A program made the position numbers and the translations under genes. Shown here in pieces: positions 52,935 to 56,484 of a stretch of DNA of 64,000 nucleotides. A model generated the notes under the pieces. That model made no database searches, had not been told where the DNA came from, and was given only the letters and a program-made list of their open reading frames with translations. Origin of the DNA: Lysobacter concretionis Ko07 = DSM 16239 (lineage in GTDB: Bacteria > Pseudomonadota > Gammaproteobacteria > Xanthomonadales > Xanthomonadaceae). The stretch covers positions 248,001 through 312,000 of the forward strand of contig NZ_AVPS01000003.1 of NCBI RefSeq assembly GCF_000768345.1. Direction: 5' to 3'. Numbering within the stretch: position 1 is the first letter of the stretch; every line of letters starts with the position of its first letter.

Positions 52935-53786
52935 CTAGAACCTGCCCTCCTGCAGATCCACGAACGCCTGCATCAGCTCCTGCCGGGTGTTCATGACGAA
53001 CGGCCCGTGACGCGCAACCGGCTCGCGCAACGGACGCCCGGCCACCAGGATCATCCGGGCGCCCCCGCTGCCGGCAACGGCCCTGAACACCTCGCCACCC
53101 GCCAGCACGCCCAGTTGCTGCGCCCCCAGTGGACGAGCATCCGCACCCTCGCCGACCGTGGCCGCGCCCTCGAAGGCGTAGGCAAATGCGTTGTGGCCTT
53201 CGGGCAGCGGATATTCCCACTGCGCACCCGGTGCCAAAGCGATGTCGAGGTACACCGGATCGGTCGCCGGCTGCACGATCGGCCCGGTGGTCTCACCCAC
53301 CCGGCCCGCGATGACCTTCACCTCGACGCCCGCGACCGGCTGCACCTGCGGAATCCGGTCCGGTGCGAACTCCTGGTAACGCGGATCGATCATCTTGTCG
53401 CGCGCCGGCAGGTTCACCCAGAGCTGGAAGCCACGCATCCGGCCCGCCTCCTGCTCCGGCATTTCCGAGTGCACGAGCCCACGTCCGGCCGTCATCCATT
53501 GCACGCTGCCGGGCACCAGCACGCCCTCGTTGCCGTGGTTGTCCTTGTGCCGCATGCGCCCGTCGAGCATGTAGGTCACCGTCTCGAAGCCGCGATGCGG
53601 GTGGTCCGGAAAGCCGGCGAGGTAGTCCTCGGGCCGGTCGGTGCCGAACTCGTCGAGCAGCAGGAACGGATCGAGGTCAGGCAATGCCGGGGCACCGATC
53701 ACCCGGGTCAGGCGCACACCCGCGCCATCGGAAGTGGGCATCCCGCGGACGGTCTGGCCGATATGGGCATAGCGTTGAGTCGTCAT
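52935..53786 (-). CDS. Pirin family protein (second of two)
   Basis: This 283-residue bicupin carries FPDHPHRGFETVTYMLDG and GSVQWMTAGRGLVHSEMPE, the pirin His/Glu iron-binding motifs. GGGAG seven bases before the ATG supports the start. It differs clearly from the pirin at 51.4 kb, so the two are old paralogues and not a recent duplication. The upstream region contains the two inverted 69-bp elements. Confidence 0.9.
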   Translation of the reverse strand: MTTQRYAHIGQTVRGMPTSDGAGVRLTRVIGAPALPDLDPFLLLDEFGTDRPEDYLAGFPDHPHRGFETVTYMLDGRMRHKDNHGNEGVLVPGSVQWMTAGRGLVHSEMPEQEAGRMRGFQLWVNLPARDKMIDPRYQEFAPDRIPQVQPVAGVEVKVIAGRVGETTGPIVQPATDPVYLDIALAPGAQWEYPLPEGHNAFAYAFEGAATVGEGADARPLGAQQLGVLAGGEVFRAVAGSGGARMILVAGRPLREPVARHGPFVMNTRQELMQAFVDLQEGRF

Positions 53787-53949
53787 GGGACGCTCCCGAA
53801 GGTTGTGGAGATGCAACCGGAGATGGCGATTGCCCGCGTGGGAAACCAGCACGGCGACAGCCACCCTTCGTTCCAGAATTGTCGCCAATCCGGGGTTTGC
53901 GCTTCGTCAGCGCCGGTTCCGGCTCCTGCTGAAGGACACAGCACGAGAT

Positions 53950-54018
53950 GCTGGCGGGCAGGGGCATCGCAAGTCGCTCCACGATATTCGCCTGGTTGCG
54001 ATGCCCCTGCCCGCCAGC
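53950..54018 (-). repeat. REP/REPIN-like palindromic element, copy 1
   Basis: The left arm (53950-53972) and right arm (53996-54018) are 23-bp perfect inverted repeats around a 23-nt loop (53973-53995). Read on the minus strand the loop carries GCGAATATCGTGGAGCGAC, nearly identical to copy 2. The arm sequences differ from those of copy 2, yet pair perfectly with each other. Confidence 0.85.
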
Positions 54019-54124
54019 CCCGACAGTCCCACCGGGCGTGGAAGAAAAGCCCTGGGCAATCGCATGCAAGCGACCTTCCGCGGTCGTCTGATGCCTTTGC
54101 CACAAGCGCCCCAATCTCCCGGAA

Positions 54125-54193
54125 GTGCCTGCCGGGTGTCCCGGTCACCAAGCGAATTTCGTGGAGCGACTGACCGGGATGCCCGGCAGGCAC
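54125..54193 (+). repeat. REP/REPIN-like palindromic element, copy 2
   Basis: Arms at 54125-54147 and 54171-54193 are 23 nt each with a 23-nt loop carrying GCGAATTTCGTGGAGCGAC. Of the 23 arm pairs, 21 are Watson-Crick. The other two become G-U wobbles in plus-strand RNA, so the hairpin stays fully paired as RNA. Confidence 0.85.
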
Positions 54194-54222
54194 CCTCTAT
54201 CACTCTCCGCTGTTGAAACCCG

Positions 54223-56484
54223 TCACCCACGCGACAACCGCCAGCAGCGATGGATCCGCGCATGGCGCGCGAAATCCGGCGGGATCGTCTGCGCACTGAT
54301 CTCCTCGCACCGCGCGAACTCCGCGACCGCCGCCTCGCCCAGCTTGAAGCGGCGGAAGTTGTTGGAGAAATACAGCACCCCGTCGCGCGACAGCCGTGCA
54401 ACCGCCGCACGCAACAGCCGCACGTGGCTGGCCTGGATATCGAAATCGTCCGCACGCTTGGAGTTCGAGAACGTCGGCGGATCGCAGAAGATCAGGTCGT
54501 ACTCCGCGGTGTCGTTTTCGAGCCACGCCACCGCGTCGGCCTGCACCAGCCTGTGGCGGGTGCCGCCGAAACCGTTCTCGGCAAGGTTGTCCGCGCACCA
54601 CTGCAGGTAGGTCGGCGACAGATCGACCGTGGTCGTCTGCCGCGCGCGCCCCACCGCTGCCTGCACGGTCGCCGCCCCCGTGTAGCCGAACAGGTTGAGG
54701 AAACGCGTGTCCTCGGCTTCCGCCGCGATCTTCAGACGCATCGGGCGGTGGTCGAGGAACAGGCCGGTATCCAGATAGTCGAACAGGTTCACCCGCAGCC
54801 GCGCATCGCCCTCGCGCACGGTGATGAACTCGCCGCGCTGGTCGAAGCGGCCGTACTTGGAACCGCCCTTGCCACGGGCGCGCGTCTTCAGGGCGACCTG
54901 CTCGTGCGGCACCGCGAACACTTCGCGGGCGGCGGCCAGCAGCTCGTTCAGGCGGCGGCGCTGCACCGGCTCGGGGATGTCGTCCGGCGCGGCGTATTCC
55001 TGCACGTGCAGAAAGGTGCGCGGCGTGGCCTCGTCGGTTTCATACACGTCGATCGCAGCGGAATACTCGGGCAGGTCGGCATCGTAGGCACGGAAGCAGG
55101 TCACGCCGTCGCGCTGGCGCCAGGCCTTGAGCTTGCGCAGGTTCTTGCGCAGCCGGTTGGCGACCATCTGCGCGCCGTCACTCAGCGCCGGCGCCGGTTC
55201 GCCCGGTTTTTTCCCGCGCTGCGGCGGGGCGATCGGGTCCACGGTGATCAGGGTGCATTCGATCGCGCCATTGAACAGCTGGTATTTCTTCAGCGCCCGC
55301 AGGCCGGTGGCATGGGCCAGCTCGGCATCGCCGCACAGCAGGCTGGCACGCCAGTCCGGCACCGCCCGTTTGAGCGCGTCGCCCAGCGCGCGGTACAGCG
55401 CGGGATCCGCGGCCAGGCGCAGGTCGTAGGGCGGGTTGCATACGACCAGACCACCCGGTGGACGCGGCTTATGCCTCGCCCGCGACCCAGTACCTGCTTC
55501 ATCCGGCTCCGACAGCTCGTCCGGCCGTCCGGGAACCTCCGGAGCCTCGTCATCGAGGATCCGCCGCACCAGCGGAATCGAACCCAACCGCAGCCCTTCG
55601 ACGGCCGCGGCTTCCCAGCGGATCGCCCCGGCCAGTCCCGCCAGCACCTCGTTGTCCTGCGCGGCGCGGATCGCCTGCGGGTCGTTGTCGCGGCCGAAGA
55701 ACACCGGACGCAGCGCGGCACGGCCGTCGGTCTCGCGCTGGCGGGCGTCGTCGCGCAACGCCTCCCAGGCGGCCTCGTCGAAACCCTTCCAGCGCGTCGG
55801 GACAAAACCGCCGTGGCGCAGCAGCCCCGGCGCGACGTCGGCGGCCATCAGCGCGCCTTCGATCAGCAACGTGCCGCTGCCGCACATCGGGTCGAGCAGA
55901 CCGCCGCCGTCGGCGTACACCTGCGGCCACTGCCCGCGCAGCAGCACGGCCGCGGCCAGATTCTCCTTCAGCGGCGCCTCGCCTTGCTGCTGGCGCCAAC
56001 CGCGCCGGTGCAGCGGACCGCCGCCCAGGTCGATCGAGACGATCGCGCGGCCCTTGCGCACCACCAGGTTCACGCGCAGGTCCGGGGTGTCGACATCGAC
56101 GCTGGGGCGCACGCCGGTGGCGTCGCGCATCACGTCGACCACCGCGTCCTTGACCCGCTGGGCAGCGAAGCGGGCGTGGGTCAGGCCGGTGCCCGACACG
56201 TGCGCATCGACCGCGATGGTGTCGCCGTCCGCCAGATGCTCCGGCCACGGCAACGCGGCAACGCCTGCGTACAGCGCCTGCTCGTCGGCGCATTCGAACT
56301 CGGCAATCGGCCACAGCACCCGGCTGGCCAGGCGCGACCACAGCACCGCGCGCTGGGCGTCGAGCGGACTGCCCTCGACATTGACGCCGGCCATCGTCGC
56401 GGTGGCGCGGCTGCAACCCAGCGCCAGCAGCTCGTCGGCGAGCAGGTACTCCAGCCCCTTGCCGCAGCTTGCGAAGAATTTCAT
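54223..56484 (-). CDS. rlmL: Bifunctional 23S rRNA methyltransferase RlmKL (m2G2445 / m7G2069)
   Basis: This fused enzyme modifies G2445 and G2069 of 23S rRNA. The 753-residue protein has a THUMP domain (about 40-160). An RlmL N2-guanine methyltransferase follows with [17 protein letters not shown] and the NPPYDLRL catalytic motif. The C-terminal RlmK domain has [27 protein letters not shown] and [12 protein letters not shown]. Length is comparable with E. coli (702 residues), with an extra charged linker near residue 330. The ATG overlaps the stop of the upstream hydrolase. Confidence 0.96.

Follow-up and report, generated by a model that had tools for sequence, protein, structure and literature searches.

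The 64,000-nt stretch of the Lysobacter concretionis Ko07 = DSM 16239 genome analysed here (the window) contains two long hairpins in opposite orientation, which raises the question of whether they belong to a wider repeat family and, if so, which part of them is under selection and what might recognise it.

Structure and genomic context of the hairpin pair

Copy 1 (53950-54018) is a perfect 23-bp stem whose arms, at 53950-53972 and 53996-54018, are 100% complementary over 23 nt and enclose a conserved 23-nt loop (53973-53995). Its selected strand, termed B below (GCGAATATCGTGGAGCGAC), is the minus strand. Copy 2 (54125-54193) has its strand B (GCGAATTTCGTGGAGCGAC) on the plus strand, with arms at 54125-54147 and 54171-54193 that are 91% complementary over 23 nt, and it also contains a conserved loop of 23 nt (54148-54170, plus strand). 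In plus-strand RNA all 23 pairs of copy 2 form, of which 21 are Watson-Crick and two G-U; the minus-strand RNA stem opens at those two positions, which identifies them as G-U pairs of the plus strand. Throughout, the orientation GTCGCTCCACGAWATTCGC is called A and its complement GCGAATWTCGTGGAGCGAC is called B. The two copies form an A→←A inverted pair around a spacer of 106 bp (54019-54124), a spacing class also found in other pairs of the family, and their loops match as an inverted repeat (92% over 25 nt). Within the window the core GCGAATWTCGTGGAGCGAC occurs twice at up to three mismatches (expected 0.03; none of 100 shuffles reached two), and the folding energies of the hairpins differ from those of shuffled sequences by z = -7.5 to -11. 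The original prediction of two palindromes with 23-23-23 architecture, 106 bp apart, with a shared loop core in inverse orientation and two G-U pairs in copy 2, agrees with these coordinates, arms and folds of both strands.

The pair lies between two minus-strand genes that we take, from their protein sequences, to be rlmKL (54223-56484) and a pirin-like gene (best start near 53786). A role at the 3' end of rlmKL, which had also been proposed, found no support in the comparison with relatives: the matched parts of the two genes are 155-256 nt apart in three same-order relatives (G022, G025 and G028) versus 443-489 nt in the host genome, and no family match was located within 9 kb of the rlmKL match in any of nine sister genomes. 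The window pair is absent from this junction in relatives. The shorter gaps of G022, G025 and G028 were considered as exact empty sites and set aside as too diverged for a junction reading. Because the hairpin-free sites are so diverged, the ends of the unit and any target duplications are not visible.

Copy number and distribution

Further copies in the genome and its relatives had been named beforehand as a check, and they exist. The host genome contains 34 copies of the loop core at up to three mismatches (31 perfect, the others with 1, 2 and 2 mismatches) versus two matches of a reversed control pattern. A covariance model returned 35 matches in the host genome and 9, 7, 0, 0, 0, 7, 6, 6 and 4 in the nine sister genomes G020-G028, in this order, with one of the six in G027 representing the opposite strand of another. 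The host genome is thus far richer in copies than its nine same-genus sisters.

An exact loop scan of 84,980 species genomes yielded 82 stretches, carried by Pseudohaliea rubra, a Halioglobus bin, other Halieaceae or gammaproteobacterial bins, Lysobacter antarcticus, Lysobacter sp. A03 and Pandoraea species. Judging from equal coordinates, the L. antarcticus and A03 genomes seem to be the assemblies G020 and G027. One exact loop match in Rhodobacteraceae (L108) is without a stem. Across whole genomes, the model matched 76 times in Pseudohaliea, 48 times in the Halioglobus bin, twice in six of seven Pandoraea genomes and four times in the seventh, counts in which a few matches may be one hairpin on both strands. 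Model matches were present in 17 genomes of a family-level sample of 149, and 15 of these are secure or likely. The matches L173 (G031) and L174 (G529) were rejected as family members and are GTAG-type REPINs instead.

Among 369 class-level genomes only the host genome and G740 matched, in a search of low sensitivity that scored 13 candidates per genome. A pattern search of 398 phylum-level genomes matched seven, namely the host genome and six with single hits at one mismatch; the reversed control pattern matched in five. Viral contigs contained no exact match of two loop patterns, and with one copy as query, plasmids and phages gave no convincing match and no record covering 80% of the query.

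Covariation of the stem and conservation of the loop

Across 138 distinct hairpins not filtered for pairing, Watson-Crick pairs fill 2615 of the 2898 cells at stem positions 1-21 (~90%), and the pairing dies out from 22 to 26 bp. For the alignment, near-duplicates were thinned and eight rows (seven distinct hairpins) that formed under 19 of 24 pairs were removed, which left 60; L034, with ill-matched arms, was also left out of the 59 rows used. Pairing occurs in 95.4% of the cells of this alignment, a value inflated by the removal of poorly paired rows, so that the unfiltered 2615 of 2898 is the fair figure; a slide by one column lowers the pairing in the alignment from 95% to 42-44%. Cells with double changes number 595 versus 174.5 after shuffling, and the covariation score is 1.086 versus 0.232. 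The number of pairs altered on both sides did not differ from that of shuffles (24 versus 23.7; 352 of 500 shuffles as high), because all pairs vary.

The loop is invariant at 18 columns of the 59-row alignment, which overstates its conservation since the main set, apart from the copies of the host genome, was collected through exact loop matches. Under the covariance model loops vary more, with CCAAGCGAGTATCGGGGAGCGAC, CCGAGCGAGTATCGGGGAGCGAA and CAAAGCGAATAACGTGGAGCGAC among the forms found. The form CCGATAC is the sole one among the pattern matches of G025 (6/6) and G028 (4/4), and a further form, ACGAWAT, is that of the host genome at the one junction (two hairpins) that it shares with G025 and G028. 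By eye, AGCGA or a close variant flanks a small apical part on each side in nearly all of the other loops found with the model.

G740, another genome of the class, contains twelve nearly identical hairpins of the same plan (L188, L189, L191, L193, L195, L197, L199, L201, L203, L205, L207 and L209), with a longer loop of 32 nt (CAAAGCGAGTTATCGCAGATTGTCCGAGCGAC). A CsrA-type GGA site was considered and discarded, the G740 loop being without GGA.

A repeat family with a conserved loop and self-complementary arms that covary, as inferred earlier from the two window copies, is hence reproduced on a larger set, with the loop almost fixed. An almost fixed loop on a stem that changes in matched pairs points to a factor reading the loop of a folded single strand.

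Strand asymmetry of wobble pairs

Any mispair that reads as G-U in the fold of strand B becomes A-C in that of strand A. At a threshold of 17 pairs or wobbles out of 22, 151 of 155 distinct hairpins were kept (L094, L095, L108 and L127 failed), and these contain 183 B versus 23 A wobbles, totals in which wobbles common by descent are counted repeatedly. Hairpins leaning to B wobbles number 107 and those leaning to A four, and all five lineages point in the same direction. In the thinned 59 rows, G·U exceeds A·C by 74 to 8. As G·U pairs occur almost only in the strand-B fold, the fold of one strand, B, is under selection, and the wobble asymmetry is the strongest sign of this. The hairpins form a family, and selection on it is one-stranded and centred on the loop.

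Inverted pairs and their polarity

Inverse pairing of the kind seen in REPINs, another element of the original prediction, is common in the family and has a single polarity. Among neighbours within 2 kb, all 36 inverted pairs are A→←A and none is ←A A→, with 11 neighbours in direct order (each sequence counted once, for the loci in the set; a smaller locus set gave 31, 0 and 11); pairs that related species share at one junction are not independent.

Judged by eye, two different stem types are joined in 7/7 pairs of Pseudohaliea and 8/8 pairs of the Halioglobus bin, some of the latter looking like near-copies of each other. When arms were re-dealt, identity was equal or lower in 2.4% of trials for Pseudohaliea and 0.7% for the Halioglobus bin. 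The difference between partner stems was not significant in the host genome (three pairs, 19%) or the sisters (six pairs, 41%), and a mixed group of five pairs had the opposite trend (84%); only Pseudohaliea and Halioglobus show it clearly. In Pandoraea, three of the six pairs have arms of a single type, and the eight direct neighbours in the host genome have similar arms (19.0 of 22). Five single hairpins of the Halioglobus bin (L034, L065, L075, L081 and L096) carry left-type outer flanks on both sides, by eye, which would fit loss of the interior of a pair; an assembly error in the bin is also possible. At four Pandoraea loci holding both hairpins 538-748 bp apart, inspection of the ORF lists revealed no recognisable gene in between.

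On balance, and guardedly, we favour the reading that the window pair is a unit of a dispersed chromosomal family, REPIN-like but with long stems, whose loop is read by a putative factor. Strand B would fold when single-stranded, in DNA more likely than in mRNA, and a putative protein would read the loop, especially its two AGCGA motifs. The family would spread as inverted pairs, with the stem serving as a mere scaffold whose sequence drifts while pairing persists, and selection would keep some copies in place, which suggests a service to the host. Of these steps, the reading of the loop by a factor is the best supported, followed by single-stranded DNA rather than RNA as its target, and then by the idea that some copies may serve the host.

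Retention at shared gene junctions

Ten groups of hairpins occupy the same gene junction in at least two species. Duplicate assemblies and second copies were omitted (both of L061 at the presumed rlmI junction, one of L019 and one of L023), and the resulting 33 same-junction comparisons share genomes and are therefore not independent. They comprise 146 differences in left and 126 in right arms, of which 108 are two-sided versus 42 expected with independent arms, and 95 of these 108 double changes replace one Watson-Crick pair by another. Loop differences amount to only 30 of 759 positions, and the flanking 60 nt have 49% identity in 28 of the 33 comparisons versus 50% for unrelated flanks. Same-junction hairpins have either been kept by selection, or some have been replaced at the same junction; the first copy on the side of a gene we take to be hslV in the host genome, with 12-13 changes per arm, may be such a replacement.

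Retention in place is unlike what is predicted for a purely selfish element, and it counts against the dispersed family as our best explanation, as does the outcome that neither a loop-reading factor nor an autonomous element was found. A more tentative alternative, which we regard as possible, is a hitherto undescribed hairpin signal maintained by the host, where a dedicated protein unrelated to RAYTs would read the single-stranded B loop with a specificity that shifts with the loop type of the genome, such as CCGATAC in G025 and G028 or ACGAWAT in the host genome.

Genomic placement and a possible role in RNA

Genes were called with a purpose-made codon-usage gene finder, and 26 of 151 hairpins lie too near an end to be classed. 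Only one of the 125 classable hairpins overlaps a predicted gene. Convergent gaps hold 32 hairpins and divergent gaps 19. Of the four lineages in which both distances could be measured, three have their hairpins closer to a gene 3' end than to a gene start, and in Pseudohaliea the two distances are about equal. These placements, together with the tolerance of G-U on one strand, are what an RNA element would lead one to expect. Strand B would then be transcribed and its loop bound by an RNA-binding protein or nuclease, for protection or processing of mRNA 3' ends or as a small RNA, and in an A→←A pair the transcript from either direction would end with a B-form hairpin. We consider this rather doubtful in view of hairpin orientation. 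In tandem gaps the sense strand is A in 44 hairpins and B in 29, and single hairpins between tandem genes are A-sense in 24 and B-sense in only 15 of 39, so the selected strand shows no preference for the mRNA sense. In the three loci examined at the rlmI junction (L001, L130 and L131; crude gene finder), B runs antisense to the genes. Furthermore, no Rfam family reached the cut-off on the hairpins: all matches in window positions 53600-54500 were below the gathering cut-off, and on six hairpin loci only FMN and cobalamin riboswitches were found, beside the hairpins. Orientation gives no backing to a function of strand B in mRNA, nor to a directional one in DNA. A bias towards one replication strand was looked for by eye in G021 and G026, whose copies are too few to support a claim.

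The cobalamin and FMN riboswitches are situated near hairpin clusters at L023:2052-2259 and L007:2559-2734, respectively. In addition, a long CTG/TTG trinucleotide run adjoins two hairpins (L030:1905-2075), and a further repeat, CCAATGAATCGCCGATGCGGCG, continuing in places as GGCGGGGTGTTGCGGACAGC, was noticed by eye beside hairpins of the host genome (L005, L007, L020 and L030).

Y1 transposase genes and the search for a carried gene

Many copies arranged as inverted intergenic pairs would also be expected of a classical REP/REPIN, here one of exceptional stem length, that is moved by a RAYT (Y1 transposase). In the same direction, the 5' foot of strand B carries GTAG at a fixed place in 14 of 25 Pseudohaliea hairpins and 4 of 33 host hairpins, with GTRG in 16 of the 33, and the one Y1 gene of the host genome adjoins a GTAG-type REPIN that is a weak model match. 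A constant GTAG place is lacking, however, in the sisters (31 hairpins), the Halioglobus group (48), Pandoraea (10) and GL140 (9).

Linkage to a RAYT gene, suggested as a check along with the original prediction, was not observed. Y1_Tnp matches were obtained in the host genome and in 10 of the 19 genomes to which exact loop matches had led. In a mixed set of 30 genomes, 18 had a match, and Y1 was no commoner in carriers (10/18) than in non-carriers (8/12). No Y1 match was found in 15 of 36 distinct carrier genomes (17 of 38 by handle, before G002 was merged with G020 and G007 with G027), including Pseudohaliea with its 76 model matches; the search used the Pfam cut, below which distant or decayed transposases could fall. 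The 43 Y1 matches gave 41 loci, mostly covering 1.5 kb on each side, with 26 in carriers and two matches without a locus, and a loop hairpin was present at none of the 41. Inverted repeats flanking some Y1 genes are of the GTAGGAG type, the GGGGTCAG type or other strings, and 14 of the 41 loci had none in an exact 13-base test. Mobilisation by a RAYT thus appears improbable for the loop hairpins.

The REPIN beside the sole Y1 match of the host, which gave the one model match among the 41 loci, is an inverse pair of GTAGGAGCGACGTCAGTCGCGAACG (L113:1929-2031) and has the strings CCAAGCG and GGAGCGAC in common with the loop, perhaps by chance. Likewise, the REPINs L173, L174, L187 and L113 were matched by the model through short strings common with the loop and were treated as chance or unresolved matches.

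A gene carried by the element itself was also sought and dismissed: among the best 40 clusters of flank proteins, those common to different genomes nearly all represent orthologous loci of one genus, and no transposase-like protein was seen. One cluster among these 40 unites the host genome, the Halioglobus bin and a GL140 bin by an ORF that is presumably short-chain dehydrogenase-like.

Least credible of all is neutral upkeep, in which template-switch correction of quasi-palindromes would keep functionless stems perfect and give matched changes in both arms, but should treat G-T and A-C mispairs alike instead of favouring one strand by 183 to 23, in a family whose loop, moreover, hardly changes.

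Comparison with known repeats and outlook

Having weighed these alternatives, we return to the dispersed family with a putative loop-reading factor. Strand-specific recognition of a folded single strand is a property of IS200/IS605 end hairpins and of integron attC sites. The loop hairpins resemble both in their strand-specific fold and differ from them in that no transposase or cassette was seen beside them. No description of such a hairpin family was found in the literature searched, and the loop strings had no match in the text searched (figures and subscription papers being outside its scope) save for a 12-mer in unrelated work. A B-strand hairpin oligonucleotide, compared with an A-strand control, could serve as bait for a new single-strand hairpin-binding protein, and the family provides a natural test of how intergenic repeats become retained at a site.

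REP, REPIN and BIME elements with RAYTs are described as short intergenic hairpins of many Proteobacteria, often in inverted pairs, with GT pairs in their stems and in some cases located inside other palindromes (Di Nocera 2013, PMC3733652; Bertels and Rainey 2011, PMC3116915). For GTAG REPs, the account in PMC3733652 gives stems of 5-13 bp, loops of 2-20 nt and a terminal tag that defines the family. Like GTAG REPs and REPINs, the loop hairpins are intergenic and form inverted dimers (36 inverted, 11 direct); unlike them, they have stems of 22-26 bp, a conserved 23-nt loop and no constant tag, and no linked Y1 gene was found for them at the loci searched.

CGTC REPs are described as hairpins without a known dedicated transposase, with stems of 8-9 bp and loops of 4-5 nt (PMC3733652). 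The loop hairpins also have no known dedicated transposase, but differ in stem (22-26 bp) and loop (23 nt). A CGTC-type REP dimer (CGTCATTCCCGCG-like) directly follows a tandem run of three loop hairpins at L020:1953-2045. The terminal inverted repeats (TIRs) of TIRYT genes, which flank a Y1 gene, are in some cases self-complementary and form moderate repeat families with dimers or clusters, according to the same account (PMC3733652). No Y1 gene searched is flanked by a loop hairpin, and this sets the two apart by description, with TIR sequences outside the comparison and identity with one of them possible.

According to PMC3733652, it is the stem and the tag that define REP families, and a Y1 transposase accounts for the GTAG ones. 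The loop-hairpin family, by contrast, has a constant loop on a stem that acts as a covarying scaffold, with selection on one strand and no Y1 gene linked to the family.
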